In this document: one piece after another, positions 9,688 to 41,467 of the stretch
Layout: every line of letters begins with the position of its first letter
Position numbering within the stretch: the stretch's first letter is position 1
NCBI GenBank assembly: GCA_030684405.1
Contig: JAUXYA010000006.1
Span: forward strand, 1-43,339
Origin: Burkholderiales bacterium
Lineage (GTDB): Bacteria > Pseudomonadota > Gammaproteobacteria > Burkholderiales > SG8-41
Direction: 5' to 3'
Length of the DNA: 43,339 nucleotides
Position numbers and translations under genes: made by a program
Notes under the pieces: generated by a model
The model's database searches: none
Told to the model about the DNA's origin: nothing
What the model saw: only the letters and a program-made list of their open reading frames with translations

Positions 9688-9731
9688 TGTGCGCCGACGC
9701 ACAGAAAGCCATGCCGGGCCCTGCCGATAAT
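9688..9731 (+). promoter_or_regulatory. Stress box with -10 element in front of 9782
   Basis: A perfect palindrome TGTGCG-CCGA-CGCACA lies at 9688-9703, followed by GA. A -10-like GATAAT begins at 9726, 22 bases after the box. This is the clearest gene-facing example of the box repeated in the right part of the window. Crp/Fnr-type binding is inference. Confidence 0.6.
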
Positions 9732-9781
9732 CAATCCTTGATCCGGCAATCCTGCCGGATAACACTGCAGGAGCAACACTA

Positions 9782-10222
9782 ATGGATAACACACCCACTT
9801 GCGCACGGCACCAGGCCGCACGCTGCCTTGCGATCGCTGTGCTGTACGGCGCAACGCTTTTCACGCCGGCCTTCGCTGCAGACAGCCCCATCGTCCGCAG
9901 CGGAAACGGCATCCCCTATGTTTCGGGCGGGGTCGGTGAAGAGTCCATGGCGCAACTTGATGCACACGCGGGAAAGTACAATCTCAAGCTCGTCTTTGCT
10001 TTGAAGTCCGGCAACTATCTCAGCGGTGTCGAGGTCAACATCATGGACGGCGCTGGTAAAAAACTATTGGCGGTAACTACCGAAGGTCCATGGCTGTTGG
10101 TCAATCTGCCGAAGGGTCGCTACCGCGTTGTCGCAACCCTGTCTGAGACGACGGTCAGTCGCAATGTTGTCATTGGCTCGTCACCCCTGCAGACGGTCGA
10201 TTTCCGCTGGGCTACGGAATGA
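9782..10222 (+). CDS. Exported protein with carboxypeptidase-regulatory-like beta domain
   Basis: The 146-residue precursor has an N-terminal signal peptide (about residues 1-33, ending PAFAAD). The mature part looks like a small beta-sandwich: GNYLSGVEVNIMDGAGKKLLAVTTEGPWLLVNLPKG-type strands, reading like a carboxypeptidase regulatory or bacterial Ig-like domain. A periplasmic role is likely but unknown. A perfect copy of the stress box lies 78 bases upstream, the first rightward promoter of the stress region. It is convergent with the next gene, 18 bases apart. Confidence 0.8.
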   Translation: MDNTPTCARHQAARCLAIAVLYGATLFTPAFAADSPIVRSGNGIPYVSGGVGEESMAQLDAHAGKYNLKLVFALKSGNYLSGVEVNIMDGAGKKLLAVTTEGPWLLVNLPKGRYRVVATLSETTVSRNVVIGSSPLQTVDFRWATE

Positions 10223-10240
10223 CTACAAGCGTTGCTTGAT

Positions 10241-10549
10241 TCAGCGGAGTCTCTTCTCGAATCTTCGCATGCCATAGCGGATAATGAAGGCGAGGGCCAG
10301 ACCGAAGCTTGAAGTCGCGGCCGTCTCGCCCAAATTATTGATGGCGGAGGTGGATTGCACCCGGGAACGACGTGCAAGCCAAAAAAAGAGCAAGCCGGAC
10401 ACGCCCGTCACAATCACCAGTGTCGACGGTCGAGGAGTCAGGGCGGCACGACCAGCAACTCGCATGCGGCCGAAACCCAAACGGACCTGGTCCATGGATT
10501 GCATGACCCTCTGTTCCGCCTCGCGAATGTTCGCTGGTGCGGGCATCAT
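10241..10549 (-). CDS. Small membrane protein at the YqjK position of a YqjD-YqjE-like operon
   Basis: The 102-residue product has a charged N-terminal half followed by two probable membrane segments (about 44-60 and 72-90) and an Arg-rich C-terminus. I recognise no conserved domain. In size, layout and place (after the YqjE-like gene, with a four-base ATGA overlap) it corresponds to YqjK of enterobacterial yqjCDEK operons, but similarity is positional only. Confidence 0.7.
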   Translation of the reverse strand: MMPAPANIREAEQRVMQSMDQVRLGFGRMRVAGRAALTPRPSTLVIVTGVSGLLFFWLARRSRVQSTSAINNLGETAATSSFGLALAFIIRYGMRRFEKRLR

Positions 10550-11408: not shown

Positions 11409-11440
11409 GTATTTCTCCTGAGTTAAAAGTTAAAACAAAC

Positions 11441-11935: not shown

Positions 11936-11943
11936 CTAAATTC

Positions 11944-12021
11944 CTAGTTGAACAACAGATATATGATTACCAGCACCACAACCGGGACACCAAAAATCCA
12001 TCCCAAAAGATACTTGCCCAT
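11944..12021 (-). CDS. Tiny single-span membrane protein (25 aa)
   Basis: A 26-codon frame encodes a peptide that starts MGKYLLGWIFGVP and continues as an almost pure hydrophobic helix, ending LLFN. A strong SD (AGGAG, eight bases before the ATG) supports translation. It lies eight bases upstream of the phasin gene on the same strand and would be the first gene of that operon. Peptides of this kind act as membrane-stress modulators or small toxins; function is unknown. Confidence 0.75.
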   Translation of the reverse strand: MGKYLLGWIFGVPVVVLVIIYLLFN

Positions 12022-12084: not shown

Positions 12085-12127
12085 AAGTTACGCACTCAAC
12101 GGTTACGGGTCTGTGCGCTGTGCCACC
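12085..12127 (-). promoter_or_regulatory. Degenerate stress box with -10 in front of the phasin operon
   Basis: On the leftward strand the conserved gene-proximal half CGCACAGAC (12109-12117) is present but the distal half is poor (GGTGGC). A -10-like TAACTT (12090 down to 12085) starts exactly 21 bases beyond the half-site. It lies 64-106 bases before the 25-residue gene. Weak on its own; it gains weight from its geometry. Confidence 0.4.
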
Positions 12128-13261: not shown

Positions 13262-13753
13262 TCAGTAGCGTTGCACCGTGCCGTTGTCGATACGTACCCG
13301 GTCGCCAACCCGCAGTCCGGCGTTGTTGCCCTGGGTCACCGTCTGATGTTGTCCGCTGTCCATGCGCACCGTGATCTTGTAGGCATCAGCCGTTTTCTGC
13401 TGCTGGCTTTTTTCGATTTCGTTGCCGACATAGGCACCGCCGGCAGCGCCCGCCACGGTAGCCACGGTCTGACCAGTGCCGCCGCCGACCTGGTTGCCCA
13501 GCACACCGCCAACAACAGCACCGGCAATGGCACCAACGCCGATACCGCTGCCGCCTATTCCGGTGCTTGCCGTCGTGTTCTGCCGCACAAGCTCGATGGA
13601 CTGCACCACACCGTAGCCCGAATAGGCGCCCGATCCGGGGTTCGTAGATCTCGCTGAGCTAGTGCCGAAGGGGTCACCCATGGTTCCGCAGCCGGCCAGC
13701 GCAAGAATCGCCAATGCGCAAAGCGTCGTTCCCGTCCAGTTCTTGATATTCAT
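13262..13753 (-). CDS. Glycine-zipper 2TM lipoprotein (SlyB/Pcp-like)
   Basis: The 163-residue protein has a lipoprotein signal (ALAGC, Cys about residue 22), then a Rick_17kDa_Anti/glycine-zipper 2TM domain rich in Gly and Ala (GVGAIAGAVVGGVLGNQVGGG, then ATVAGAAGGAYVG) and a C-terminal beta part (YKITVRMDSGQHQTV). SlyB-type proteins stabilise the outer membrane under stress. I use the ATG at 13753 after CTGGAG; the frame is open further but unlike the family. Two copies of the stress box lie in the 214-base gap upstream, which is shared with the Mce operon. Confidence 0.9.
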   Translation of the reverse strand: MNIKNWTGTTLCALAILALAGCGTMGDPFGTSSARSTNPGSGAYSGYGVVQSIELVRQNTTASTGIGGSGIGVGAIAGAVVGGVLGNQVGGGTGQTVATVAGAAGGAYVGNEIEKSQQQKTADAYKITVRMDSGQHQTVTQGNNAGLRVGDRVRIDNGTVQRY

Positions 13754-13825
13754 GGCAGTTCTCCAGGTAATTTGAAATCGGCTCCGGTGCACCCAGAGGA
13801 GTGCTGGAGTAGCGATCGTGGGCAA

Positions 13826-13868
13826 AGTATCGGCAGGCCCCAGAGAGGGGTCTGTGCGCCTCCACACA
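13826..13868 (-). promoter_or_regulatory. Stress box with -10 in front of the glycine-zipper gene
   Basis: TGTGCG-CCTC-CACACA at 13853-13868 (top strand) reads TGTGTG-GAGG-CGCACA-GAC toward the leftward gene. A -10-like GATACT runs from 13831 to 13826, 21 bases beyond the box, 73 bases before the start codon. Confidence 0.6.
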
Positions 13869-13913: not shown

Positions 13914-13956
13914 TGTACGCTCCCACACAGACCGGCCATGTCATCTTGATTAGCCT
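13914..13956. promoter_or_regulatory. Second stress box, shared by divergent genes
   Basis: TGTACG-CTCC-CACACA at 13914-13929, extended by TC and GA on its two sides. A TAGCCT -10 candidate begins at 13951, 21 bases to the right, facing the Mce operon. On the left the other box (13853) is 61 bases away. The site could serve either direction. Confidence 0.5.
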
Positions 13957-13967: not shown

Positions 13968-15104
13968 ATGGACTCCATGTCGGTGGCCTCAGATGCAATC
14001 GCTGATCCGACGCCACACGGGCTCACGCTATCGGGATCCTGGACGGCACACAGGATCGGCACAGGCACATCCGGATGGGACACGCCCTCCCGCGGATCGT
14101 CATCCGCGCTGATCATCGACGGCTCGCGTATTGAGGCTCTGGACACCGCCGGTGCCTGGGTGCTCCAGAAACTTCTGCATCGACTGCGCGACGAGGGCAG
14201 AAACGTGGACCTGCAAGGCTTGCGCCCGGATTTCGCCAAGCTGATGGCGGTCGTGGCGCAACAGGCGGCTGATTCGACGGGTGTAGACGCTCCTGCAGGC
14301 GTCACTCCCGCGTCGCAACTGGCAGCCCTGGAACGGAAGGCAGCGGCGGCCGGGGAACAGGCTCTGGCGCTGCTCAGCTTCGTCGGCGAAAGTGCGGCAG
14401 CGCTTGCAGGGTCTATTGCACATCCATCACGACTGCGCTGGCGTCCCGTTCTTTATAACATCCGCACTGCCGGCTTTGACGCCCTGCCCATCGTCGGTCT
14501 GCTGGCATTCCTGCTCGGCATCGTGGTCGCTTACCAGGGTGCCGAGCAGCTCCGCCAATACGGCGCCAATATATTTGTCGCCGACCTGATCGGCCTGTCG
14601 ATGCTGCGCGAGTTCGGCCCCCTGATCACCGCCATCATTGTTGCCGGCCGTTCAGGCTCGGCATATGCCGCGCAGATCGGCACCATGGCGGTGACCGAGG
14701 AGATCGACGCCATGCGCACCCTGGGCATCGCTCCACTGGAACTGCTGGTGCTGCCGAAAGTACTGGCGCTGCTGATCGTCATGCCGCTGCTGACCGTGTT
14801 TGCGGATGTGCTAGGCGTGTTTGGCGGCATGATCATGGCTCAGCAGCAGCTGGACGTCGGTTATGGGGATTTTCTTGATCGCTTTGTCAAAGCCGTCAGC
14901 GTCACGTCATTTCTGATCGGCATCTGCAAGGCGCCGGTATTTGCCGTCATCATCGCCATGGTCGGCTGCTTCCAGGGCTTCCGCACCCAAGGCGGCGCCG
15001 ACAGCGTTGGCCGTCACACCACGCGCAGCGTCGTGCAGTCGATATTTCTGGTAATCGTTGCCGACGCACTGTTCTCCGTCGCCTTCAGCGCACTGGGCCT
15101 TTGA
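13968..15104 (+). CDS. Mce-system ABC permease with N-terminal STAS-like domain (MlaE-like fusion)
   Basis: The 378-residue protein joins two parts. Residues about 1-105 resemble a STAS/MlaB-like domain (ALIIDGSRIEALDTAGAWVLQKLLHRLRDEG, then VDLQGL). Residues about 115-378 form an MlaE/YrbE permease with five or so membrane helices; REFGPLITAIIVAGRSGSAYAAQIGTM and the EIDAMRTLGI loop are family signatures. In the E. coli Mla system STAS protein and permease are separate. The operon continues with ATPase, MCE protein and lipoprotein; the start of the next gene overlaps the stop by one base. Confidence 0.92.
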   Translation: MDSMSVASDAIADPTPHGLTLSGSWTAHRIGTGTSGWDTPSRGSSSALIIDGSRIEALDTAGAWVLQKLLHRLRDEGRNVDLQGLRPDFAKLMAVVAQQAADSTGVDAPAGVTPASQLAALERKAAAAGEQALALLSFVGESAAALAGSIAHPSRLRWRPVLYNIRTAGFDALPIVGLLAFLLGIVVAYQGAEQLRQYGANIFVADLIGLSMLREFGPLITAIIVAGRSGSAYAAQIGTMAVTEEIDAMRTLGIAPLELLVLPKVLALLIVMPLLTVFADVLGVFGGMIMAQQQLDVGYGDFLDRFVKAVSVTSFLIGICKAPVFAVIIAMVGCFQGFRTQGGADSVGRHTTRSVVQSIFLVIVADALFSVAFSALGL

Positions 15105-15934
15105 TGACAACCGCGGACATGGCCATCAAGAACCGGAGCCGCGATACGGTCATCGAGATCAGCGATCTCACGACACGTTTTGGAGACCATGTCGTGCATG
15201 ACGGTCTTGATCTTGAAGTGCGACGGTCGGAAATATTCGCACTGATCGGCGGCAGCGGCTCCGGCAAGTCAACCCTGTTGCGCGAAATGATCCTGCTGCA
15301 ACGCCCGGACTCAGGCTCGATCCGGGTGCTGGGTGTCGACCTGCAAAACATCAGCGAAGAAGCGGCGCTCGAATTGCGCCAGCGCTGGGGCGTGCTGTTT
15401 CAGCATGGCGGCTTGTTCGGTGCGCTGACGGTTGCCGAAAACGTGGGACTGCCGATGCGCGAACACACCCGGCTCGACGCTGCACTGATCAATGAACTGG
15501 CGGGCTGGAAAATCGCCATGACGGGTCTCAAGCCGGAAGTCGCCGGACAATATCCATCCGAACTGAGCGGCGGCATGATGAAACGCGCTTCGCTCGCCCG
15601 TGCACTGGCACTTGACCCTGAACTGCTGTTTCTCGACGAGCCGACCGCGGGCCTCGATCCGGACAGTGCGGCCGGCGTCGATGAACTCGTGCGCAAACTG
15701 CGCGACCTGTTCGGTCTGACCATCGTCATGATCACCCACGATCTTGACCTGTTGTGGCAGGTGGCTGATCGCGTCGCCGTGCTCGCCGCGGGCAAGGTGC
15801 AAGGCGTCGGCTCGATGGCCGAACTCGCCCAGATGGACCATCCGGCGATAAGTCCGTTTTTCGAGGGGCCGCGCAGTCGCGCGGCTCAGGACAAAAACAT
15901 CGAAAATAAAAAAATAATGAATAAAAACAAGTAG
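15104..15934 (+). CDS. Mce-system ABC transporter ATPase (MlaF-like)
   Basis: The 276-residue ATPase has Walker A GGSGSGKST (about 46-54), the ABC signature LSGGMMKRASLARAL (about 147), Walker B LLFLDEPTAGLDP and the switch His in MITHDLDLLWQVADRVAVLAAG. Family match is MlaF of phospholipid transporters. The frame also opens from a TTG at 15101, but the ATG at 15104 overlaps the permease stop by one base (TGATG), a common coupling. The last 15 codons are A-rich and low-complexity (NIENKKIMNKNK), which is odd for this gene. Confidence 0.94.
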   Translation: MTTADMAIKNRSRDTVIEISDLTTRFGDHVVHDGLDLEVRRSEIFALIGGSGSGKSTLLREMILLQRPDSGSIRVLGVDLQNISEEAALELRQRWGVLFQHGGLFGALTVAENVGLPMREHTRLDAALINELAGWKIAMTGLKPEVAGQYPSELSGGMMKRASLARALALDPELLFLDEPTAGLDPDSAAGVDELVRKLRDLFGLTIVMITHDLDLLWQVADRVAVLAAGKVQGVGSMAELAQMDHPAISPFFEGPRSRAAQDKNIENKKIMNKNK

Positions 15935-15939
15935 TTATA

Positions 15940-16890
15940 ATGGAAACCAAAGTCAACTACGCAATCGTCGGCGCTTTTGTGTTGGTGCTCGGCGCCGTGC
16001 TGATAGGCAGCGCACTGTGGCTTGCCTCGGGCGGCACGCTGCAGAAAAAATATTCTCCGTATCTGGCCATCATGGTGGAGTCGGTTTCCGGCCTCAATCT
16101 GAACGCGCCCGTCAAATACAACGGGGTTGATGTCGGCAAGGTTCGAAGTATCCAGCTGGATCCTGCCAACCCGGAGCGTGTGCGACTGATGTTGTTGATC
16201 GAGCGCGGCACCCCGATCAAGGTGGATACCGTGGCGGTGCTGAAAACCCAGGGACTGACCGGCATTGCCTACGTCGAATTGAGCGGGGGTGCCCTAAACG
16301 CGCCGTTATTGGAAGCCATCGCGCCAGAACCGTATCCGATGATCCTGACGAAGCCCTCGCTCAGCGCACGATTGGAGAACGTGCTGACCAGCGTTCTGGC
16401 AAAACTGGACAGCACCTCGGACAATATCGACGCCCTGCTCAGCGCCGAAAATCAGGCGGCGTTCAAAAGCGCACTCGCCGACATTGCCGTCGTGGCGCGA
16501 ACCGTCGCCGCGCGCAGGGAAACGCTCGATAAGGGCATTACCCACGCAGCGCGCACTTTGGAAAATGCATCACGCCTGACGGCACAGGCCGGGCCGCTGA
16601 TTGACCGCATCGGGCGCAGCGCAGAGGCCGTCGAGGAAATGGGCATCGAGGTTGCCCGCACCAGTGTCAGCGCCGGAAAGGCCGTCGACTCCGCCGGCGC
16701 CGATGTCAAACGTTTCACCGCAGAAACCCTGCCCGAACTGGAACGCCTGCTGGGCGAACTCGCCATTCTGACAACCTCACTGCGCCGTCTCACCGAACAG
16801 ACTGAGCGCAATCCGCGCGGCTTTCTGTTCGGCCGCCAGCCGGTCCCGCCGGGACCGGGAGAAACAACAACCGGACCATCAAAACCATGA
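15940..16890 (+). CDS. MCE-domain protein (MlaD/PqiB-like substrate carrier)
   Basis: The 316-residue protein has one N-terminal transmembrane helix (about 8-30) and one MCE domain (about 38-115; VSGLNLNAPVKYNGVDVGKVRSIQLDP and the loop TQGLTGIAYVELSGG). A long helical C-terminal region follows (about 140-290), as in Mce proteins that build a periplasmic tunnel. It ends in a Pro/Gly-rich tail. It overlaps the next gene by four bases (ATGA). Confidence 0.93.
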   Translation: METKVNYAIVGAFVLVLGAVLIGSALWLASGGTLQKKYSPYLAIMVESVSGLNLNAPVKYNGVDVGKVRSIQLDPANPERVRLMLLIERGTPIKVDTVAVLKTQGLTGIAYVELSGGALNAPLLEAIAPEPYPMILTKPSLSARLENVLTSVLAKLDSTSDNIDALLSAENQAAFKSALADIAVVARTVAARRETLDKGITHAARTLENASRLTAQAGPLIDRIGRSAEAVEEMGIEVARTSVSAGKAVDSAGADVKRFTAETLPELERLLGELAILTTSLRRLTEQTERNPRGFLFGRQPVPPGPGETTTGPSKP

Positions 16891-17540
16891 ACAAGCCATC
16901 CGCGGTTCGCCACGGCCGATACCTTGCTGCAGGCCTGTGTCTTCTCATACTGGGTGCTTGCGGCGCACTGCGCCCTGAAGCAGCACCGCCGCATCCGGCC
17001 TACTATGCGCTGGATATCCCGCAGCGCCCCGCACCGGCTACCGCTACTGCTACTGCTACCGCGCCGACATTGACTGTCAACCCCCCGCATGCCGCCGCCG
17101 GATTTGACAGCGCACGCCTCATCTACGTCCGCGAAACACACAAACCTGAATACTTCGCACACAGTGCATGGATAGACCCGCCGGCGCGCATGCTCGCGCC
17201 GTTGCTGGTCGCCGCGGTCGAAAACACCGGAGCATTCCGGGCCGTAGTGCAGAAGCCCGGCACCGCAACCGGCGACTTCCGTCTGGATACCGAGATCATC
17301 CGCCTGCAACAGGATTTCCGCACTGCACCGAGTCGCGCGCACTTCACGCTGCGCGCTTACCTGGTCGAGGAAAAAACACGGCGCGTGATCGCCTGGCAAG
17401 AGTTTGATGCAGCCGTTCCGGTCACCAGCGAGGATCCTTATGGGGGTGTGGTGGCGGCCAATCAGGCCGTGGGGATCGTGCTCGAACGACTAGCAACTTT
17501 CTGCGCTGATGCGGCAGGCAGCGTATGGATGAAAAAATAA
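16887..17540 (+). CDS. ABC-type transport auxiliary lipoprotein (PqiC-like)
   Basis: The 217-residue protein has a lipoprotein signal (LLILGACGA, lipidated Cys about residue 25), then an ABC_trans_aux (PqiC/YmbA, DUF330) domain: YYALDIPQRP, then VYVRET-like and EYFAHSAWIDPPARMLAPLL, then DTEIIRLQQDF. It would anchor in the outer membrane and receive lipid from the MCE protein. With the three genes before it, it completes a transport route from inner to outer membrane. An Ala-Thr run (residues about 51-60) is a small low-complexity spacer. Confidence 0.9.
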   Translation: MNKPSAVRHGRYLAAGLCLLILGACGALRPEAAPPHPAYYALDIPQRPAPATATATATAPTLTVNPPHAAAGFDSARLIYVRETHKPEYFAHSAWIDPPARMLAPLLVAAVENTGAFRAVVQKPGTATGDFRLDTEIIRLQQDFRTAPSRAHFTLRAYLVEEKTRRVIAWQEFDAAVPVTSEDPYGGVVAANQAVGIVLERLATFCADAAGSVWMKK

Positions 17541-18203: not shown

Positions 18204-18272
18204 TTGACTACTTTGGAATGCCCGGCAGAATGCCTTGAATCCTGCTGTCATTCCGTTCGCTGGAACACATAA

Positions 18273-19546: not shown

Positions 19547-20131
19547 CTAACGATAGACGTGCTCACCACTGTTTTTCTTCCATTCCTGCTCGAAATGAGC
19601 GGCGTCTTCGTCAGAGCGCGGCTTCACACCCATCAGAATGCCGCCCTCTTTGATCCCGTCCTCATACTGCTTGACTCGTTCTTCCGGGATACCCCAGCCA
19701 ATCAGCGCGCCCACCACGCCACCAGCCAAACCACCGGCACCCGCACCTGCCACAGCCGCAGCGATCGGGCCTGCGATCACAAGTCCCAGTCCGGGAATGG
19801 CAAGCGTCGTTCCCACCGCAGCCACGGCAGCAGCAATCGCACCTACCGTACCGCCAATGGCGCCACCAATTCCTGCACCTTCGCTCGCCTTGTTGCCGAG
19901 TTCGGTGTCACCATCCGAATCCGCGGCGAAATGCTTTTTCCGTGTATCGTCCGACATCATCAGGTTGACATCACCCTTGTCATAGCCACGGCTGGTAACA
20001 GCCCCGTACGCGCGTTCTGCATGATCGCGATCCCTGAATAGGCCCGTCACCATCTTGGATTCTGAAGACTTTGTTTTGGCGTTGGTTTCATCTGTTGCAG
20101 CGCCAGGAATATGTTCGACAGGTTTGTTCAT
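19547..20131 (-). CDS. YflT-like general-stress protein with glycine-zipper membrane part
   Basis: The 194-residue protein starts with a heat-induced-stress YflT-like domain (MVTGLFRDRDHAERAYGAVTSRGY..., about 27-70), has a central Gly/Ala-rich hydrophobic region (about 88-150, several GxxxG zippers) and an acidic-to-basic tail. The predicted location is the membrane. Function unknown; the fold occurs in general-stress proteins. A half copy of the stress box lies 95 bases upstream. Confidence 0.75.
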   Translation of the reverse strand: MNKPVEHIPGAATDETNAKTKSSESKMVTGLFRDRDHAERAYGAVTSRGYDKGDVNLMMSDDTRKKHFAADSDGDTELGNKASEGAGIGGAIGGTVGAIAAAVAAVGTTLAIPGLGLVIAGPIAAAVAGAGAGGLAGGVVGALIGWGIPEERVKQYEDGIKEGGILMGVKPRSDEDAAHFEQEWKKNSGEHVYR

Positions 20132-20197: not shown

Positions 20198-20241
20198 AAC
20201 ATAGGAGATGCCCATGAACAACGTCTGTACGTTGCAACACT
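20198..20241 (-). promoter_or_regulatory. Half stress box with -10 in front of the YflT-like gene
   Basis: The leftward gene-proximal half CGTACAGAC (top strand 20223-20231) is intact; the distal half AGTGTT is poor. A -10-like TATGTT runs from 20203 to 20198, 22 bases beyond. Confidence 0.45.
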
Positions 20242-20345: not shown

Positions 20346-20388
20346 CGTACGTTCTCGTACAGACCCTGCACCGGCGGCTGCCCATGCT
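20346..20388 (+). promoter_or_regulatory. Stress box with -10 in front of the repeat protein
   Basis: CGTACG-TTCT-CGTACA at 20346-20361, followed by GAC; one mismatch in the distal half. A -10-like CATGCT begins at 20383, exactly 21 bases after the box, 65 bases before the ATG at 20453. Confidence 0.55.
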
Positions 20389-20452
20389 GCTTCTTCTCCG
20401 GAATTTTCCGGCAGAGTTTTCACTTCACGACTCAATTTCAAGGAATATCAAT

Positions 20453-20827
20453 ATGAAAGCCTCCAAATTCCTCATCCCGACAGCTGCCACTCTCGCCTTT
20501 GCCAGCATGATCGGCATTGCCTACGCACAGACTGGAACCACTGGCACTCAGTACAATCGCTCGAATACCGGCACGAATGCTGATGCAACACTCACCCAGA
20601 ACCGCGACTCAACAGGAACGATGAATCGTGATGCCACTGGTTCGACGAATCAAGGCACCACCGGCACCATGAATCGCGATTCGACGGGCAACATGAATCG
20701 TGACACGACGGGTGCAATGCAACGGAATTCGCCCAGCACCACGAACCGCGATTCGACCGGCAGCATGAATCGCAGCTCGACCGATGACCGATCCAGCCAA
20801 CGTTTGGCCCGCGCTGACCGTAACTGA
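20453..20827 (+). CDS. Exported low-complexity repeat protein (Asn/Thr/Gly-rich)
   Basis: The 124-residue precursor has a signal peptide (residues about 1-25, ending IAYAQ). The mature part consists of imperfect 8-10-residue repeats of the form TGTMNRDSTG, about eight copies, with no Cys and almost no hydrophobic residues, so it is probably disordered. I recognise no family; it may be a surface or matrix protein. A perfect stem-loop terminator follows. Confidence 0.7.
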   Translation: MKASKFLIPTAATLAFASMIGIAYAQTGTTGTQYNRSNTGTNADATLTQNRDSTGTMNRDATGSTNQGTTGTMNRDSTGNMNRDTTGAMQRNSPSTTNRDSTGSMNRSSTDDRSSQRLARADRN

Positions 20828-25831: not shown

Positions 25832-25837
25832 CCTGCT

Positions 25838-25919: not shown

Positions 25920-25932
25920 CGGCTACCGCTGC

Positions 25933-28674: not shown

Positions 28675-28717
28675 ATTGTTGATTTTTTTTCTGATATTTA
28701 CTGTTCGCTGTCACACA
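28675..28717 (-). promoter_or_regulatory. Stress box with -10 in front of the superoxide dismutase gene
   Basis: TGTTCG-CTGT-CACACA at 28702-28717, flanked by C and GA. Read leftward the proximal half is CGAACAG. A -10-like AACAAT runs from 28680 to 28675, 21 bases beyond the box. This leaves a 5' leader of about 113 bases. Confidence 0.6.
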
Positions 28718-29640: not shown

Positions 29641-29683
29641 ACAGTAACTGCTATGGGTCAACAATACTGTGCGGCAACACACA
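29641..29683 (-). promoter_or_regulatory. Stress box with -10 in front of Anbu
   Basis: TGTGCG-GCAA-CACACA at 29668-29683; read leftward it ends CGCACAGT. TACTGT runs from 29646 to 29641, 21 bases beyond. Start codon about 100 bases downstream. Confidence 0.55.
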
Positions 29684-31182: not shown

Positions 31183-31887
31183 TTAGCATGGGACGTCTTT
31201 TATCCATTCGACTAACAGCCGGTTGACTTCCTCGGGTTGATCAAGGGTCGACAGATGTCCGCACTGGTGGATTACCTCCAGTTTCGCATTCTTGATGCCA
31301 TCTGATATTTCCGCTGACAACGCAGGGGGCGTGACCAAATCGTTCTCGCCGCAGATGACCAGCGTCCGGCAGGTGATGCGTTTCAGTATCGGCCGACTGT
31401 CGGGGCGCGCCATGATCGCTCGCTGCTGGCGTTCGAAAACTTCTTCTCCGAGACTTTCTGCCATCGAATGAATGACACCACGCACGTTCGGCAAGCTCAT
31501 TTTGTCGGGATGCGATAGACGTGGAAGCAATTTTTCGGTCACTGCATTCAAATCCGTTTTGGCCAGCTCAATTAATGTTTCACGTGCGGCGCTGGCTTCT
31601 GCGGTATCCGGTCGAGCCGTAGTATCCATCAACACGAGGCCGGTCACCCTCTCGGGCGCCTGGCGCATGATCTCGAAGGCAACGTAGCCGCCCAGTGACA
31701 GGCCCAGCAGGACAAAGCGGTTTGCCGGGGCCGTATCGAGTACGCTGGTCGCCATCTCCCCGATCGTATCGTCATTTGTCAGGTCGCCTACTTCAACCGA
31801 AGCAACAGCCGACAAGGCCGGGATTTGTGCCGCAAAGAGTTCTGCATTGTTGAGCAGCCCCGGTAACAGCAGGATGTGTTGACTCAT
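31183..31887 (-). CDS. Alpha/beta-fold hydrolase
   Basis: The 234-residue protein is an alpha/beta hydrolase with the nucleophile elbow GLSLGG (Ser about residue 84), an Asp in CGENDLVTPP and a His in QCGHLSTLDQPEEV. It resembles small esterases and BioH-like or 3-oxoadipate enol-lactone hydrolase-type proteins; the substrate is unknown. Divergent to the diiron protein gene, with 151 bases between. Confidence 0.88.
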   Translation of the reverse strand: MSQHILLLPGLLNNAELFAAQIPALSAVASVEVGDLTNDDTIGEMATSVLDTAPANRFVLLGLSLGGYVAFEIMRQAPERVTGLVLMDTTARPDTAEASAARETLIELAKTDLNAVTEKLLPRLSHPDKMSLPNVRGVIHSMAESLGEEVFERQQRAIMARPDSRPILKRITCRTLVICGENDLVTPPALSAEISDGIKNAKLEVIHQCGHLSTLDQPEEVNRLLVEWIKDVPC

Positions 31888-31978: not shown

Positions 31979-32021
31979 ATATTGCTTTAGCTCACGAAGA
32001 CGCTCCGTTCGTTGCCGAACG
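31979..32021. promoter_or_regulatory. Box-like palindrome between divergent genes
   Basis: CGTTCG-TTGC-CGAACG at 32006-32021 is a perfect palindrome but has C and G where the stress box has T and A at its outer ends. On the leftward side CAATAT lies 21 bases beyond (31984 to 31979). Tentative. Confidence 0.35.
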
Positions 32022-32038: not shown

Positions 32039-33049
32039 ATGCCTAGCAACTTGAATCCGGATTCTCGACAGGCCCAGTATCGTATGTGGGCCGACGAACA
32101 GATTATTCGTCCTTCGAAGATCATTGTGCGCGATCAATGTCTCAGGAAGATTGCAGCCATGATTACCGCCCTCGCCTTTCACGACCCTGCCCGCAACAAG
32201 GCGCATCAATTCCATACCCATCTGAACCACTTCAACTCGAATCGGCTCACCCCCGCCTTGCTGCGACCCGAGTGGCAGGCCAACTTGCGCACCGAATATG
32301 AAGCGAGTGTGGAAGAAGGATTGTTTGTCGAGCACGAACGGCACTTGATCCAACGCACCGCTCGCGACGCGCCCGAGAAACCCGACGCATTTTTGCGCTG
32401 GTTCGAAGATCTGCGCGAATCCGGTTACGGGCAAAACGATTCCCTGTTCCCGTGGCTGGGAAGTGACGCGACGTTGGAGGAGATGCGCTGGTTCCTGGCG
32501 CAGGAGGCAGCGGGTGAGGCCGGTTTTGATGATTTGGTCGCACTCACGCAGGTGAGGTGTCCGGTGCGCGCGAAACTTGAAATGGCGCGCAATTACTGGG
32601 ACGAAATGGGTCGCGGGCACGAACGGGGCATGCACGGGCCCATGCTGGCGGCTGCTGTGACGGTACTCGACTTGGAGCCGTCCGTTGATAAAACAGTGTG
32701 GGAAGCGTTGGCCCTATCCAACCTGATGGCTGCCCTGGCGTCCAATCGACGGTACGCCTATCAGTCCGTAGGCGCCTTGGGCGCAATCGAAATGACCGCC
32801 CCGGGGCGAGTCGTTCATATCAACGCCGGCTTGAAACGTCTCGGCGTGCCCAAGGAGGCGCGGGCATATTTCCAGTTGCACGCAGGTTTGGACATTGAGC
32901 ATTCGAAAGCCTGGAATAAGGAAGTTATTTACTCTCTGGTAAAGACAGACGCGTCCACCGCCCGGCCTATCGCAGAAGGCGCGCTGATGCGCCTGGCCAG
33001 CGGGGCACGATGTTTCCGGCGTTACCGCGCACATTTCGGCCACAGCTGA
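32039..33049 (+). CDS. Heme-oxygenase-like diiron protein (iron-containing redox enzyme family)
   Basis: The 336-residue protein fits the Haem_oxygenas_2 / heme-oxygenase-like diiron family. Potential ligands are seen in FLAQEAAGEAGFDDLVAL, NYWDEMGRGHERGMH and LHAGLDIEHSKAWNKE, matching the E, D/E and H...D..H pattern of these enzymes. Members oxidise varied substrates such as N-hydroxy groups and fatty acids; which one here is not readable. I use the ATG at 32039; the frame is also open from a TTG at 32012. It is convergent with a methyltransferase gene. Confidence 0.8.
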   Translation: MPSNLNPDSRQAQYRMWADEQIIRPSKIIVRDQCLRKIAAMITALAFHDPARNKAHQFHTHLNHFNSNRLTPALLRPEWQANLRTEYEASVEEGLFVEHERHLIQRTARDAPEKPDAFLRWFEDLRESGYGQNDSLFPWLGSDATLEEMRWFLAQEAAGEAGFDDLVALTQVRCPVRAKLEMARNYWDEMGRGHERGMHGPMLAAAVTVLDLEPSVDKTVWEALALSNLMAALASNRRYAYQSVGALGAIEMTAPGRVVHINAGLKRLGVPKEARAYFQLHAGLDIEHSKAWNKEVIYSLVKTDASTARPIAEGALMRLASGARCFRRYRAHFGHS

Positions 33050-34235: not shown

Positions 34236-36626
34236 CTAAACCTTCGGCGGGTCGCTGTCGCGGGACGGGTGTCGGTGAGCCGCAATCGCCTTGATGAATT
34301 GAGGCGCGGTGTCGGCCGCCTTGTTCTCATCCGCCAATATCACCCCGGGGTCCTCGCCCGCCACCGCCGGGATACCCGCCATTTCAAGGAGCTGCTGCGC
34401 AGCGCCGAACACAAGGATGGTTTTGCAATGCCGGAATTGGTCCTTTACGTATTCCATCGTGTGGCCGTCAATCGCCAGCGTCTCGATCGCCTTCTCGCCA
34501 GCGGGCAGCACCAGCGCATCAAAGAGCACGGAAGGCGAGTTCTCCATCGACTTGTTCGCCTCGACCACAGCGCCATCATCAGCGATGAACTTGCCAACGC
34601 GCGGCCCGACGAAATGCACCACCGCACCCTCTGCGGCCAATGCTGTGTGGATTTCGGCTAATGAGGCAAGATGCACACCGTCGGCAACCAGCATTGCGAT
34701 CTGGCGTGTACGTATGCCGCACTCGCCCGGCAATGCAGTCAGGGACAGCGCGGCGGACGTTTTGACCTCAGGTGTTGGTGCCTTGGCGAGTGCCTTGGGC
34801 ATGGCATCCGGCACATTTATCCCCAGCCCTGCAGCGACACCGGCGGCCAGCTCGGGCGAGACATTCACCAGCGAAGCAACCATGCGCTCGCGGATTGCCG
34901 GCACGCCCACCTTGCTGAGCTCAAACCGGAACGCGGCGACAATATGGGCCTTCTCCACGGCGGTCTGGCTGTCTAAAAACAAAGTTGCCTGCGCATAATG
35001 TTCCGCGAATTTTTCCGGCTTGCCGCGCACCTTGTCTGCTTCGATGGGTTCCGGAAAGGACTTAAAGCCGGTGGAGCCGGCCTGGAATGGACAGCCGCCG
35101 CCGAGCGAATTCGGCTCGTACGAGACGCGGCCGCGGTTGAGCGTCTGGCGGTGCATGCCGTCACGCTGGTTGTTCTGCACGGGAGCAAGGGGCGCGTTGA
35201 TCGGAATCTCGTGAAAATTCGGACCTCCCAGACGACTGATCTGTGTGTCGGCATAAGAGTGTATGCGGCCGGCAAGCAACGGATCATTGCTGAAGTCGAT
35301 TCCCGGCACGACATGCGCCGTGCAGAACGCCACCTGCTCGGTTTCGGCAAAAAAGTTGTCCGGATTTCGGTTGAGAACCATGCGACCCACCGGAGTCACG
35401 GGCACCAGTTCTTCCGGGATGAGCTTCGTCGAGTCGAGAACATCGAAGCTGAACTTGTCGCTTTTCTCCTCGGTAAATATCTGCAGGCCAAGCTCCCATT
35501 CCGGAAAGTCCCCGGACTCGATTGCTTCCCACAAATCCCGGCGGTGATAGTCGGGATCAGCACCGGAGATCTTTACCGCTTCGTCCCACACGAGGGAGTG
35601 TGTGCCGAACAGAGGCTTCCAGTGAAATTTGCAGAATACTGAAGCGCCTTTTTCGTTGATCAGCCGGAAAGTATGTACGCCGAACCCCTGCATCATCCGG
35701 TAGCTGCGCGGTATGGCACGATCCGACATGAGCCACATCAAAGTATGAGTTGACTCGGGCATCAGGGAAACGAAATCCCAGAATGTGTCGTGGGCTGACG
35801 CAGCCTGCGGCATGCCGTGATGCGGCTCCGGTTTAACAGCGTGTACCAGATCCGGAAATTTCATCGAATCCTGAATGAAGAAAACCGGCATGTTGTTCCC
35901 CACCAGATCCCAGTTTCCCTGGTCGGTGTAGAACTTGACGGCAAATCCGCGCACGTCGCGCGCGGTGTCCTTAGAACCGCGTTCTCCGGCAACTGTTGAG
36001 AACCTGACAAATACAGGTGTTTTCTTGCCCGCTGCGGAAAAGGGCGCAGCCTTTGTATATTTGCCAAGTGGCTCATAGGACTCAAAAAAACCATGTGCCG
36101 CCGACCCTCTCGCATGCACGATCCGTTCCGGTATGCGCTCGTGATCAAAATGGGTGATCTTTTCGCGCAGGATAAAATCTTCCAGCAACGTCGGCCCGCG
36201 CAATCCGGCTTTTAGGGAATTCTGGTTGTCGCTGATGGGCACGCCCTGATTGGTTGTCAGCCTCTGCTCCCCGGCATCCGCCCGCACTCGCTCGAGTGAC
36301 GCCGTCGTCGCATTCTCTCCGGGAATTGCCGGGCCGCCTGTCTTGGCGTTGGCGTTTTCTTCTGACCCGGTGCTTGCAGTTATTCCGGGTCTGGACGGCT
36401 CCACGGTGGCACCTTCCCGCGGCGCAGCGGCATTGTCCTGGCCGTATTCAAATTTCTTCGTTGCATTGAAGGGAAATGCGACGGCGAGTTCATTCACTTC
36501 CATCCCCTGTTCCGCCACCACATCATTGCTGCGCAACAGGTCATCGGCTGTCTTTACGTTGCGTTTCTTTGCCTTTGTTTTGGCGGGCGCTTCCGGGGAT
36601 TTGGATGTTCTCTTGCTATTAGCCAT
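34236..36626 (-). CDS. katE: Catalase HPII (large-subunit, clade 2 monofunctional catalase)
   Basis: The 796-residue enzyme breaks down hydrogen peroxide. The core begins around residue 120; the catalytic His171 lies in [15 protein letters not shown], and the heme-ligand Tyr in [18 protein letters not shown]. After about residue 640 a DJ-1/class-I amidotransferase-like C-terminal domain follows ([28 protein letters not shown]), the mark of large-subunit catalases. The N-terminal 115 residues are Lys/Ala-rich and poorly conserved. A good stress box lies 104 bases upstream. Confidence 0.95.
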
Positions 36627-36700: not shown

Positions 36701-36745
36701 AATCTTGCCTAACCGCATTCGTCGCTGGCTGTACGGTGAAGTACA
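36701..36745 (-). promoter_or_regulatory. Stress box with -10 in front of catalase
   Basis: TGTACG-GTGA-AGTACA at 36730-36745 has one mismatch in the distal half. Read leftward the proximal half is CGTACAG. The best -10 candidate is AAGATT (36706 to 36701), 23 bases beyond, so the spacing is slightly longer than for the others. Confidence 0.5.
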
Positions 36746-37023: not shown

Positions 37024-37857
37024 TTACGCGGCCCGCGACATCTTGCGCCGTCCTACAAAGCCCAGCAGTCCCAACCCCGCGGCCAGCATCGCGTAGGTTT
37101 CGGGCTCGGGGATGGGCGTCATGGCGCTGAAACCCGCGCTACCGAAATCGTTGCGGCTGCTGTCAAAGTTCATAACGTCGCAGTTACCGGATACCGTATT
37201 GGTATCCATCGTCACAGCGCCGGTTTGTGCGAAGGCCCTGCCGCACAGGATGCTTGCTCCCGTATTCAGGGTGATACTCGCGAGTGCCAGGATGTTTCCC
37301 GCGAACGAGGTGCCTGTCCCGAGGGTCGCAGAGCTGCCCACATTCCAGAACACGCCGTTATTCGCACCGCCGTTGATCACGTCGACAAATGAACCACTGG
37401 CGGTCGTGAGGGTACTACCAATCTGGAACCCGAAGAACGCATAGGGATCATTCTGGGCATTGAGGGTCAGCGTTCCAGTCAACTGCGCCGAGCTGTCAAA
37501 CTTGTAGATTCCGGGGGTCAGCACCAATGATCCCAGGTCCACGCCGGTCAGATCGGTGGTAAATGGCTGGAGCGCAATATTGTTGTACGCAGTCGTGACG
37601 TCTGCCTGGGCCTGCTGAGCAACCGCGTCGGTCTGGTGCACCGTCCCTGTGAGAGTGATGCTGCCGAGGCCGGTGATCGATGTGCCCGGGTACAGGCCCA
37701 GATCACCATAAATGGTTGTCGGTCCGGTATTGGTCACTGTAGAGGCGCCAAGTATCGAAAAGCTCTGTGCCGAACCCAGGAATGGATCGGCCAATGCCGT
37801 GGCGGGACCGTACGCCATGGCGATGAGGAAAGGTATTGCCAATTTCGTGGTTTTCAA
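37024..37857 (-). CDS. Ice-binding-like (DUF3494) PEP-CTERM protein
   Basis: The 277-residue precursor has a signal peptide ([19 protein letters not shown]), a DUF3494 ice-binding-type beta-helix domain ([30 protein letters not shown], then [35 protein letters not shown]), and a PEP-CTERM tail ([30 protein letters not shown]). The tail sorts it through an exosortase to the cell surface or matrix. I choose the TTG at 37857: AAGGAG stands eight bases before it, whereas the Met upstream at 37899 has no SD. So a TTG start with a strong SD. Confidence 0.85.
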
Positions 37858-38031: not shown

Positions 38032-38074
38032 AAATTAAGCGGATCCTCAGGCTGCATCCGTGCGAAAGCACACA
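38032..38074 (-). promoter_or_regulatory. Stress box in front of the DUF3494 PEP-CTERM gene
   Basis: CGTGCG-AAAG-CACACA at 38059-38074; read leftward TGTGTG-CTTT-CGCACG. A TAATTT -10 candidate runs from 38037 to 38032, 21 bases beyond, leaving a leader of about 170 bases. Confidence 0.4.
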
Positions 38075-38226: not shown

Positions 38227-38269
38227 TGTTCGCTATCGTACAGATTCCCATGTCATGCGGTGCAATTCT
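38227..38269 (+). promoter_or_regulatory. Stress box with -10 in front of the second PEP-CTERM gene
   Basis: TGTTCG-CTAT-CGTACA at 38227-38242, followed by GAT. A weak -10 candidate AATTCT begins at 38264, 21 bases after, itself preceded by TGC. The start codon is 122 bases further. Confidence 0.5.
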
Positions 38270-38391
38270 CGTGCCGGTAGTACCCGTATGTTTCACATCG
38301 CATGCGCGCCAATACGCCTCAAGGCATCTCGGTTGATGCTGACTGGTTCAGGCATGTAAATGCAGGGTTTTTTATCTTTTGGGAGACCATC

Positions 38392-39030
38392 ATGAAATTG
38401 AAATCCTTACTTGCCTCTATGCTAATTGTGGGATTGTGGACTGCCGGAAACGCAGCGGCCATCATCACTCTTGACAATAGTGGGGCGACGAGTGTCCAGC
38501 AACAGAGCGCTACACCTTGCATATTCGGTGGCAATAATTGCAATAATCCGCTTGGTTTTGGTTTCACGGACGTCAGTAGTTTCGACAACGATGGAACAGT
38601 AACTTTGCTGGAAGGCTTATCTCCTTTTTATACGGTCAGCCAGATCAGTTCCCTCTTGGGCAGTAGACTTTTTTCCGTTGGGATTGATACCAATCAGTCA
38701 TCGGGTGGCGCAGAACCTCGCCAACTATTGCATTCGTTCGAGATGTTGGTAGGCGGTATCTCCACTCAATCGTACTTCGGCCCCACTTACATCAACATTG
38801 GCGCCAATGGAACCGGCTGGTCTGATGCGATGCTCAATGGATTTTCGCTGGAAGGCTTGGCGGGCGCAACGACAATACAGTTCCGGACCCATTACTCGAA
38901 CGCAACCAATGGCACGGACGCCATGTTTTTAACCAGCGCAATTCCCGAACCCGAGACTTACGCCATGATGATGGCCGGTCTGGGTTTAATGGGTTGGGTT
39001 ACCAGGCGAAGGAAACTCTCAGCCGCGTAA
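38392..39030 (+). CDS. PEP-CTERM exported protein, unknown domain
   Basis: The 212-residue precursor has a signal peptide (residues about 1-23, ending AGNAAA), a beta-rich mature part without a family I recognise, and a PEP-CTERM tail ([30 protein letters not shown]). Two Cys near residues 43 and 49 may form a disulfide. GGGAG precedes the ATG at 38392 by eight bases, so I prefer it to an ATG at 38302. A strong terminator follows. No exosortase gene is in the window; it must be elsewhere. Confidence 0.85.
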   Translation: MKLKSLLASMLIVGLWTAGNAAAIITLDNSGATSVQQQSATPCIFGGNNCNNPLGFGFTDVSSFDNDGTVTLLEGLSPFYTVSQISSLLGSRLFSVGIDTNQSSGGAEPRQLLHSFEMLVGGISTQSYFGPTYINIGANGTGWSDAMLNGFSLEGLAGATTIQFRTHYSNATNGTDAMFLTSAIPEPETYAMMMAGLGLMGWVTRRRKLSAA

Positions 39031-39081: not shown

Positions 39082-39232
39082 GTGAAGATCCGCTGAATCG
39101 ACATTGAGTAAGCAGACCCGCTGTCGGCATTTATGAGGGCTGCCTGCAGACCCATTTGACGTGGTTGGTCGGGATAGGAGGATTGCCCGTTACCGGCTTG
39201 ATATTCCGGCAGCCCTGACGTCTTAAGCGATG

Positions 39233-39817
39233 CTAGCTTTTTTCCGCTGCCTTACCCGGAAGCTCAATCATGGCTTGGTTCGTATCGTAAAGCGCCCGAT
39301 GTGCAGCTTTGATCGCCGCATCGTGCCGCTCGCCGACGGGTTCGTCAACCATCGCCTGGACGGACTTGAGCAACTGCTCCGCGGATTTTTGCAGCGCTGC
39401 CATGGACTGCGCGTTATCCGGCTGTGAGCCCGTTAAGCCCGTAGCACCTGAACCGCTATTCGAGCTCGATGCCGGAGTCGGATCTGCACGCATCCCGGGC
39501 GGAAGCTGCGACATGGCTTGATTTGTGAGATTCAGCGCCTGATGTGCCATTGCAATCGCAACCGTGCGCTGCGCCCCCGGCTGCTTTTGGGAAATTGCCT
39601 GGATGGCACCGCGCAGCCCTTGCGTCGCCTTGAGCAGGCGCTCCAACTCCTGGTTGTAGCCCGACTGCGTATCGGATTGGGTGGCTGCGACGGCAGGAGC
39701 CGGCACAGTCTTGTTCGGCGATGCAGGAATTGCTGTTTCCGTGGTGGACTCGGACCCGCAGGCAGCGAGGACACTGGCGAACATGATCGATGCAGCGATG
39801 GCAAGTGTGCGTCTCAT
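39233..39817 (-). CDS. Lipoprotein with internal duplication
   Basis: The 194-residue lipoprotein (lipobox SVLAAC, lipidated Cys about residue 20) has an Ala/Pro/Thr-rich linker and two related helical repeats: TVAIAMAHQALNLTNQAM and AAIKAAHRALYDTNQAM, each after a stretch with QSMAALQKSAEQLLKSVQAM-type helices. I recognise no family. Start ATG at 39817, with GGGG six bases before. It precedes nothing in the same operon; the AI-2E gene is next on its right, also leftward. Confidence 0.75.
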   Translation of the reverse strand: MRRTLAIAASIMFASVLAACGSESTTETAIPASPNKTVPAPAVAATQSDTQSGYNQELERLLKATQGLRGAIQAISQKQPGAQRTVAIAMAHQALNLTNQAMSQLPPGMRADPTPASSSNSGSGATGLTGSQPDNAQSMAALQKSAEQLLKSVQAMVDEPVGERHDAAIKAAHRALYDTNQAMIELPGKAAEKS

Positions 39818-39918
39818 ATCGACCCCTTTATTCAAAAAGTCTGCATAGAGCATTCGTTAACAGCCAGGGTGCTGTCCTGTGAACCTCAACACCCTCCGGT
39901 ATTTGTCGGGGTACAGCA

Positions 39919-41079
39919 CTAGTCCCCGAGTAACTCCCCCACAGGTTTCAGGTCTTCCACGTGATCGCACACGGATTTAATTATCATCAGGACAGGAACG
40001 GCCAACAGCAAGCCCCACGGACCCCATAACCAGCCACCCAGAATCACACTGGTGAACACCACGACTGTGCTCATACTGCCGGCGCGGCCAATGAGCCATG
40101 GGGTAAGCAGGAGGCCCTCGATGCTGGTGATGACCAGCGCTACGCTCGCCACCCATAGCGCCATGCCGAGGGAGCCAAACTGAACCAGTGCTACCAGCGC
40201 AATCCCCGTGGAAACGACAATCGGCCCGAAGTAAGGTACCGAATTCAGCACGCCCGCCGCTATCCCCCAGATCGCCGCATGCTCCAGCCCGAGCGCCAGG
40301 AACGCGAGCCAACTCACCACTCCCACCAGCACGCTCGTGAACACCTGCACCAGAAGATAGCGCTGGATCTGTTGTGTAATCCCGTTCAGCACTTCGACGG
40401 TAATTTTTTTTTCGCTGAGCGTCGGGCTGATTTTTACCAGCTTGCGGCGAAACACATCGCCCGCTGTCATCAGAAAATAGGCGAAAAAAAGCACGGTCAC
40501 AAGCTGCCCGATGAAAGTCACCAGCCCCATCGTTCCACTCCACAGATAATTGCGAATGTTGACTCTGGGCTTTTCGATCTGTACCAAGGTCACGCCACGT
40601 GGCGCAGGGCTGGCTACAGTGCCGCTCTCGATGGCTGCTTGTTCGAGTTCGGTTGCTGCTTTCTGGACTTTCTCCACCGCCTTGGCCCCGTCACCTTGTG
40701 ACGTACTCAAAGCCTGTCGCATTTTCTGCACGGAATCAGGCAGCGTCTCGATGATTTCAGCGGTCTCGTCACCTAATGAATAGACCAGCGCTCCCACCCC
40801 TGCAACGATGCCAATCAAAAGCACCGCCGCCCCGATCGCGCGGTGGATATGCCACTTCTCCATGGCATTAACCACAGGAGAGAATGCATAGCTCGTCATT
40901 ACTCCCAGGACAATCGGGATCAGGATGGGGGATGCCCAGTGCAGCATGTAGAGGGCGACGAGTACCGTCAACACGACAATCCAGCCATTCCTTACTCTGA
41001 TCGGCGCGGGGTCAGCTCCACTCACTGAAGCTTTCACTGATTCGTTGGCGGATATTTTTAGGTCAAGTTCGGTTTTCAT
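39919..41079 (-). CDS. AI-2E family transporter (UPF0118)
   Basis: The 386-residue inner-membrane protein has about eight transmembrane helices and the typical AI-2E/UPF0118 pattern: WASPILIPIVLGVMTSYAFSPVV at the start, PLDSVQKM-like loop, the LVQVFTSVLVGVVSWLAFLALGLEHAAIWGIAAGVLNSVPYFGPIVV core and the closing GGWLWGPWGLLLAVPVLM. Members export autoinducer-2, or act as Na+/H+ or solute exporters; role here unknown. I use the ATG at 41079; the frame is open to 41181. Confidence 0.9.
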   Translation of the reverse strand: MKTELDLKISANESVKASVSGADPAPIRVRNGWIVVLTVLVALYMLHWASPILIPIVLGVMTSYAFSPVVNAMEKWHIHRAIGAAVLLIGIVAGVGALVYSLGDETAEIIETLPDSVQKMRQALSTSQGDGAKAVEKVQKAATELEQAAIESGTVASPAPRGVTLVQIEKPRVNIRNYLWSGTMGLVTFIGQLVTVLFFAYFLMTAGDVFRRKLVKISPTLSEKKITVEVLNGITQQIQRYLLVQVFTSVLVGVVSWLAFLALGLEHAAIWGIAAGVLNSVPYFGPIVVSTGIALVALVQFGSLGMALWVASVALVITSIEGLLLTPWLIGRAGSMSTVVVFTSVILGGWLWGPWGLLLAVPVLMIIKSVCDHVEDLKPVGELLGD

Positions 41080-41467
41080 GCGCGCCCATGGTAATGCGGC
41101 CATCCTGCGCTGAACTGCAGCGGATTCAAATCGGCCGAGTAAACCGCAGTTGCTCCGAAAGTTCCGTGCGCCGCCAAACATACGGTGATGCCTCCCCTAC
41201 GGAGGGCACTTGGATCGTCAGGCGAACAAGGCCTGCGATGAACTCCAGGACGCGGCTGGACGACTGACTGTGGACGCACCTAATTGACGACGTTCAGACC
41301 CATCACAGCGGACATTCACCACTCATTGGCGAGGTCGCGCGCAGGGCTGGACACTTACTTGCCGGAGTTGCCCTGACCAGATGATGTCAAGGTACAAACT
41401 ATGTGCGAAAGGAAACAGACGCGTCGGATGGGGGGGCCTATATCTCTTCCTACTAACAAGGATAATA
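41080..41467. other. Divergent gap in front of the Crp/Fnr gene
   Basis: No gene in 388 bases. It holds a possible degenerate box for the regulator gene (41402). A weak CGTGCG-CCGC-CAAACA near 41165 might belong to the AI-2E gene. Nothing else is clear. Confidence 0.5.
41402..41444 (+). promoter_or_regulatory. Degenerate stress box and -10 in front of the Crp/Fnr gene
   Basis: TGTGCG-AAAG-GAAACA at 41402-41417, followed by GAC; two mismatches in the second half. TATATC (41439-41444) begins exactly 21 bases after. It suggests autoregulation of the regulator. Confidence 0.4.

Follow-up and report, generated by a model that had tools for sequence, protein, structure and literature searches.

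A probable 20-bp Crp/Fnr-type operator before stress, envelope and small-RNA genes in a Burkholderiales bacterium and its relatives

The closest described relatives of the element studied here belong to the Crp/Fnr family, in which cAMP-CRP recognizes TGTGA-N6-TCACA and FNR, an iron-sulfur protein with an N-terminal cysteine cluster, recognizes TTGAT-N4-ATCAA; class II activators have their site centred at -41.5. Here we analyse a palindromic box with the core TGTNCG-N4-CGNACA in a stretch of 43,339 nucleotides from a Burkholderiales bacterium (GenBank assembly GCA_030684405.1, contig JAUXYA010000006.1, positions 1 to 43,339; hereafter the window), which also encodes a 237-residue Crp/Fnr-type regulator (41468-42181, + strand). 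A preliminary description, made from the sequence, had listed 16 copies of this box and proposed that they form one regulon. Very probably, the box is the operator of a Crp/Fnr subfamily, of which the regulator at 41468-42181 is one member, and would serve as a class II activator site for the subfamily's own genes, for stress and envelope genes, for PEP-CTERM and exopolysaccharide genes and for small RNAs. It resembles CRP class II promoters of the E. coli CRP, Vfr and Clp type in its 16-bp TGT...ACA frame, dimeric palindrome, centre at -41.5, lack of a -35 element and the Crp fold and helix of its presumed regulator. It differs from CRP sites in its conserved half-site, T[AC]TGTGCG, which has C and G at positions 5 and 6 (A and T in CRP sites), a loose position 4, a conserved outer T/A and a conserved central TA, and in that no Pfam family matches the regulator's sensor domain. 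FNR differs in its operator and in its N-terminal cysteines, as none is invariant in 28 aligned sequences of the subfamily, where the conserved cysteines are 141, 218 and 220.

The box is confirmed as real and not a product of chance. The window holds four exact cores, at 9688, 23963, 25789 and 38227, against a mean of 0.04 and a maximum of 1 in 100 shuffles, and 12 cores with at most one mismatch (shuffle mean 1.94, largest 6). The preliminary description had singled out the first three as perfect or near-perfect repeats; the fourth belongs with them. Across the source genome (G000, 3.74 Mb, with the window as contig C4), 27 exact cores stand against 3 copies of the reversed pattern; with one mismatch allowed, the figures are 214 and 141. 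Exact matches in the genome to the TGTCCG...CGGACA type were set aside as mostly intragenic; loci L087, L088 and L090-L093 keep no site scoring at least 12 in the 20-bp model described next. The 16-bp palindrome first proposed stands, but as the core of a longer operator of 20 bp, T[AC]TGTGCGnTAnCGCACA[TG]A, whose outer T (91%) and outer A (84%) are conserved across 138 promoters, neither base having been part of the search matrix. A 20-bp model trained on 134 regulator-gene promoters, none from the source genome but selected with a matrix built from that genome's sites, window included, finds 18 positions scoring at least 10 in the window versus 0.73 in 40 shuffles. The top score over these 40 whole-window shuffles was 18.8, so many individual sites are persuasive only collectively.

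The sites are concentrated between genes, as defined by a simple in-house gene caller that leaves 9,564 of the 43,339 bases as gap DNA. All 16 listed sites are present in the sequence and, as had been claimed, lie outside called genes, with the proviso that the longer-start open reading frames (ORFs) 13262-13867 and 41381-42181 would include those at 13853 and 41402. The comparison with shuffled gap DNA that had been suggested gives 14 sites scoring at least 12 in the window versus 0.06 (100 shuffles, largest 1). In the first 9.6 kb, from which the box had been reported to be absent, no position scores above 2.9.

The box is linked to regulator genes well beyond the source genome. In a first set of 76 loci, each centred on a regulator gene and taken from other genomes of the order, with the same genus and family included, a matrix-free count of xyzNuv-N4 palindromes ranks TGTNCG first of 1024 with 61 copies. 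It is also first of 180 half-site permutations (61 versus a mean of 2.1 that includes TGTNCG itself), and at other spacers from 0 to 11 it occurs at most three times each. The second-ranked palindrome, GCANAC-N4, was rejected as a codon artefact: it is intragenic, at fixed distances from the regulator-match start, in most loci. With a matrix built from 31 source-genome sites, 64 of 109 regulators have a box in the preceding 400 bases, versus none with the reversed matrix; these 109 were kept from 112 matches after partial N-termini or upstream stretches shorter than 150 bases were excluded, and 8 of them come from the source genome itself. A second, named set of 80 loci, mostly from beta- and gammaproteobacteria, has the box upstream of 85 of 120 homologues versus 1 of 120 with the reversed matrix. 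The two sets overlap by three, as L188, L206 and L242, judged by length, share their contigs with loci of G025, G107 and G137. Later matrix counts share their core with a first matrix that was built on source-genome sites, and the checks on them are the reversed matrix and the flanking bases.

Box and regulator also go together in number and in kind. Over 232 genomes with 0, 1-2, 3-4 and at least 5 regulator copies, exact boxes average 3.95, 7.0, 8.7 and 17.8 (Spearman 0.53; 0.18 for a control pattern, which also rises slightly), and within the genus (21 genomes) the correlation between exact boxes and regulator paralogues reaches 0.87, versus 0.005 for the control pattern. Regulators with the recognition-helix type VRREG have the box before their own gene in 121 of 170 cases, those with VRRVG in 34 of 42 and 14 others in 5. 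The excess in gap DNA, the recurrence across beta- and gammaproteobacteria and the correlation with paralogue number together support the proposal that these are Crp/Fnr-type sites of one regulon, and neither of the two tests that the preliminary description offered for refuting it did so.

The regulator itself has the features of the family, including a winged helix, the overall fold and, linked to it by position, a 16-bp TGT...ACA inverted repeat. Pfam HTH_Crp_2, a C-terminal Crp-type winged helix, matches it above cut-off (E 1.8e-12), and a monomer model from AlphaFold2 (AF2; predicted local distance difference test 90.6) shows a beta-roll, a long dimer helix and a winged helix; no NCBIfam model matched the protein. 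The closest PDB folds (Foldseek) are GlxR (E 5e-13) and Mycobacterium tuberculosis CRP. These two (4cyd and 3i54) are the best matches by both sequence and fold, with a sequence E value of 4e-7 for 4cyd, yet identity is only 21-23% and their operators differ. The longer frame 41381-42181 has no Pfam cNMP-binding match at E 0.001, yet its fold resembles that of cAMP-binding GlxR, and the missing profile match is not proof against such binding. Among 200 genomes sampled from the order, 63 encode homologues, often in multiple copies. The preliminary description had pointed to the protein of 41468-42181 as the regulator; the box upstream of its homologues bears out a regulator of this kind, but it is one of eight paralogues in the source genome and its own box (41402-41417, + strand; 20-bp model score 16.8; -10-like TATATC at offset 21) is weak. 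One paralogue (L082:16033-16767, on contig C16 of G000) no longer has the conserved recognition helix, reading SLDGMA instead of RREGVT, and has no upstream box. The family's regulator genes are often paired side by side (L175, L230, L250 and others), several such pairs having one box each.

Of 230 aligned rows, every one has Cys220, and 229 each have Cys141, His145 and Cys218; the rows comprise 229 sequences plus the query, which is also among the 229. Retrieval of the named loci relied in part on the peptide QTA[VA]C[NT]R[HF]H, a route that biases them towards Cys141 and His145. From these near-invariant residues our guess is that the signal may be a redox or metal switch.

The box keeps a fixed distance to a promoter element. 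A -10 hexamer 21 bases past the 16-bp core (offset 21) places the box centre at -41.5, the class II activator position, relative to predicted start sites. At the regulator promoters, 21 is the best of 75 offsets for a -10-like hexamer, offset 0 aside; the peak at offset 0 was discarded as the outer palindrome itself rather than a -10. The same spacing holds at 241 other target genes (z 5.9), and 128 of 222 target genes combine A at position 2 with T at position 6 at offset 21, whereas other offsets average 10.1 such genes and never exceed 24. For 15 window sites, z is 5.1 on the gene side versus 0.5 on the opposite side; this test omitted 32006, which is two-sided, and scored 25789 on its protein-gene side, a choice that disfavours our interpretation. 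The aligned promoters show no TTGACA-like conservation at the expected positions of a -35 hexamer.

The genes behind the boxes fall partly into recognizable classes. In 156 regulator loci, the 365 kb of gap DNA contain 391 sites scoring at least 12 and the 1,235 kb of genes 42; without three doubled loci (153) the counts are 386 and 42, and five gap-DNA shuffles give 1 to 5, to be compared with 385. Target lists omitted regulator genes and ORFs under about 60 residues, and 240 of 243 target proteins were compared with Pfam (three very long ones were left out, and three of the 240 are counted twice through the doubled loci), with 145 length-matched proteins from the same loci as controls. CsbD proteins are enriched, with 17 of 240 box-downstream proteins versus at most 1 of 145 controls, where the family is not among the 25 shown (Fisher p 0.0025), and so, to a lesser degree, are BON proteins (22 of 240 versus 4 of 145; Fisher p 0.02). 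A second large cluster of sites in the source genome lies on contig C5 at about 96-145 kb, among exopolysaccharide and PEP-CTERM genes. Its sites precede genes for CsbD, phosphoglucose isomerase, PEP-CTERM proteins, a glucose phosphotransferase of exopolysaccharide synthesis, a PpiC-type rotamase, a BON protein, a weakly matched glycine-zipper protein and regulator paralogues. Further sites precede COX2 (C6), KaiC (C33) and a TPS-secretion protein (C35).

Box sites had been thought to lie before protein genes, which holds for most of them, but the strong, perfectly palindromic site at 25789-25804 (+ strand; score 25.2) faces, on its -10 side, a small RNA (25833-25922, + strand) rather than a protein gene. 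After the -10 hexamer AATAAT (25826-25831) come about 90 bases, a stem with a C-rich loop followed by an intrinsic terminator, ending in a hairpin and seven T. This stretch is conserved in G020, G013 and G030 among 60 relatives, and a covariance model of the RNA alone yields 22 matches in 17 of 74 family genomes. As three of the four seeds came from a DNA query that contained the box, the 18 non-seed matches are more telling: 16 have an upstream box scoring at least 21, and for 15 of them the box is 27-33 bases away from where the RNA starts; two (L302, L306) have none. There is strong covariation, with both partners changing in 20 of 26 pairs, and none of 500 shuffles equals the observed value on any measure, in an alignment that was itself fitted to the covariance model. 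A regulator is found in 14 of 16 genomes with a boxed RNA copy versus 22 of 58 others (Fisher p 0.0005). Rfam has no family, at gathering score, for the window RNA or 16 RNA loci. Among 33 further matches examined with a second model, R2 (32 readable), two have a box scoring at least 12 at 27-33 bases: L313, in G205 of another family, which among the matches examined is the only boxed copy beyond the family, and L096:4655-4737, a second copy in G013 of the same genus. The rest were dismissed as other C-rich or plain terminator RNAs. A distinct C-rich RNA, with a CCCGCUU-CUCCUCCCU-GAGCGGG stem and a terminator, recurs in the order (L312, L319, L325, L332) without a box. Loops such as UUCCUCCCU appear to resemble anti-Shine-Dalgarno seeds.

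Several observations weigh against a regulon of this kind. At two mismatches the core is at chance level in the window (27 versus 26.04 in shuffles), so the weaker listed sites require separate support; this comes from the 20-bp model, which places 16 of 16 listed sites within the window's 21 top-scoring positions. The first matrix included the source genome's sites, window and all. No site scoring at least 10 precedes 42 of the 109 regulators, and a -10 scoring above 3 at the set spacing is found for only 60 of 241 target genes; elsewhere in the source genome only 13 of 27 site-and-direction rows score above 0 at that offset. The BON enrichment is modest, and glycine zippers (Rick_17kDa, 14 of 240 versus 4 of 145) and DUF883_C (7 of 240 versus 3 of 145) are not clearly enriched. 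Six genomes without a regulator hold 11-19 exact boxes, in addition to the complete genome G051, which has 31 exact boxes versus 2 reversed copies and no regulator homologue at E 1e-25; there the box is perhaps used by another protein. G009 and G241, both 84% complete, have boxed small RNAs and no regulator found. Conservation before single targets, another suggested test, bears out the box only in part. Among near Anbu orthologues (a sixth, in G018, is cut by a contig end) it is kept in three of five readable cases, G004, G020 and G013 (84-86% identity), in G020 without a good -10 at the set spacing, and is missing in G010 (75%, five regulators) and G001 (72%, no regulator); 19 distant Anbu copies have it in none. 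Among five relatives, the catalase box is weak in G013 and missing in the other four. From this mixed picture, targets seem to turn over while operator and regulators persist.

Other explanations of the box fare worse. The chance frequency of loose matches would fit random palindromes, a dispersed repeat or RNA hairpins in G+C-rich gap DNA, but such an origin is highly improbable given the shuffles of whole window and gap DNA, the reversed pattern, the permutation rank, the fixed -10 distance and the recurrence of the box before the same gene family in many genera; the N4 centre and flanks vary, unlike copies of one repeat. It is unlikely that the box is bound by some other protein or by a single master paralogue, with most Crp-type genes being merely targets. 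Eight paralogues in one genome, a single operator type before genes of both helix types, the many boxes of G051 and the weak box of the regulator at 41468-42181 would fit such a binder, whereas the palindrome is in the Crp frame and the VRREG and VRRVG types share the box before their own genes. Finally, the subfamily may bind sites that act chiefly in repression or autorepression, with the dimer over the -35 region blocking polymerase. Crp/Fnr proteins can repress, and the box overlaps the expected place of a -35; we nevertheless consider this quite unlikely, as there is no TTGACA-like sequence conserved there, and a repressor site needs no fixed register, whereas the -10 keeps the class II spacing.

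Under the favoured interpretation, an activator operator of the Crp/Fnr subfamily, dimers would bind the 20-bp operator and, at -41.5, overlap the place of the missing -35 and recruit RNA polymerase with an ordinary sigma factor, as at class II promoters. They would activate the regulators' own genes; an envelope and general-stress set comprising BON and CsbD proteins and, in the window, the glycine-zipper and PRC-barrel proteins, superoxide dismutase, catalase and Anbu; PEP-CTERM and exopolysaccharide genes; and small RNAs whose C-rich loops may, as a presumed target rule, mask ribosome-binding sites.

The gene labels assigned earlier to the window hold, most by Pfam and Anbu by matches to PDB Anbu chains (E 1e-77 and better). 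From left to right, exact cores precede 9782-10222 (9688-9703, + strand; score 19.5; GATAAT, offset 22) and the PRC-barrel protein 23460-23828 (23963-23978, - strand; 19.3; TAAGCT, offset 21). Operators at 13853-13868 (- strand; 17.0; GATACT, offset 21) and 13914-13929 (+ strand; 19.2; TAGCCT, offset 21) precede the glycine-zipper lipoprotein 13262-13753 and the MlaE, ABC ATPase and MlaD-type transport genes 13968-17540, respectively, all matched by Pfam. The site at 20346-20361 (+ strand; 11.5; CATGCT, offset 21) precedes 20384-20827, which has no family match. Three sites are weak by sequence: 12112-12127 (- strand; 8.9; TAACTT, offset 21), facing a small frame at about 11945-12021 (-) seen by eye only; 20226-20241 (- strand; 7.2; TATGTT, offset 22), before 19547-20131; and 25685-25700 (- strand; 7.0; GATGCT, offset 21), before 24663-25625. 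Superoxide dismutase (27872-28546, Pfam) is preceded by 28702-28717 (- strand; 20.3; AACAAT, offset 21), Anbu (28812-29540) by 29668-29683 (- strand; 17.8; TACTGT, offset 21) and the long-chain catalase (34236-36626) by 36730-36745 (- strand; 10.7), whose CAAGAT at offset 22 is weak. The site at 32006-32021 (- strand; 14.0; AATATT, offset 22) may belong to the alpha/beta hydrolase 31183-31887 or to the divergent 32084-33049. Two PEP-CTERM proteins matched by Pfam, one of them ice-binding (37024-37857), follow 38059-38074 (- strand; 16.9; TAATTT, offset 21) and the exact core 38227-38242 (+ strand; AATTCT, offset 21), which with 25.8 has the window's top score and precedes 38302-39030.

Five positions were absent from the preliminary list. 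An additional intergenic operator at 41165-41180 (- strand; 17.9; TTTACT, offset 21) precedes an AI-2E-type transporter (39919-40974, Pfam), a longer ORF start for which would include the site. One candidate operator lies in intergenic DNA at 18254-18269 (strand unassigned; 16.7); another, at 32085-32100 (+ strand; 17.7), coincides with the predicted start of 32084-33049, a haem-oxygenase-like gene whose product Pfam Haem_oxygenas_2 matches from residue 135. The site at 43049 is intergenic, and that at 24283, intragenic with a score of 10.2, is probably due to chance. The contig end (43230-43339) contains an inverted repeat, CCCTCTCCC...GGGAGAGGG, of a type common in proteobacterial gap DNA.

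Among functionally related systems, RpoS- and EcfG-type general stress regulons likewise contain OsmY-like BON proteins, CsbD, catalase, superoxide dismutase and glycine zippers; what marks the genes here is instead a Crp-type operator together with a TAnnnT -10. The CcsR 'cuckoo' RNAs of Rhodobacter are several stress-linked copies whose C/U-rich loops could pair with ribosome-binding sites, and the RNAs described here differ in sequence and hosts and in the Crp-type box in front. PhaR (AniA) recognizes YGCRNYGCR, with halves one base apart, and some of its sites read TGTGCG...CGCACA (PMC12542648); TGTNCG at spacer 1, by contrast, has no copy in the regulator loci. PEP-CTERM and exopolysaccharide genes are reported to be controlled by RpoN/PrsK-PrsR, a sigma-54 system (PMC9850573, PMC1569441), whereas here they follow a Crp-type box and a sigma-70-like -10. 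A regulon under Crp/Fnr control is a known kind; operator, subfamily and RNA family are undescribed as far as literature searches reach.

With a firm operator whose promoter geometry is fixed, the genes under these regulators can be predicted in many environmental bacteria. One switch thereby connects stress proteins that are poorly understood (CsbD, BON, PRC-barrel and Anbu) with PEP-CTERM and exopolysaccharide genes, and a small-RNA family gains a candidate promoter and regulator. It is also possible, although we put this forward only tentatively, that in the general stress response of beta- and gammaproteobacteria RpoS is replaced or paralleled by a multi-paralogue Crp/Fnr subfamily that carries a thiol/histidine switch, one 20-bp operator firing envelope, oxidative-stress and exopolysaccharide genes along with multi-copy anti-Shine-Dalgarno RNAs. 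If so, a single activator would yield transcriptional activation together with translational silencing.

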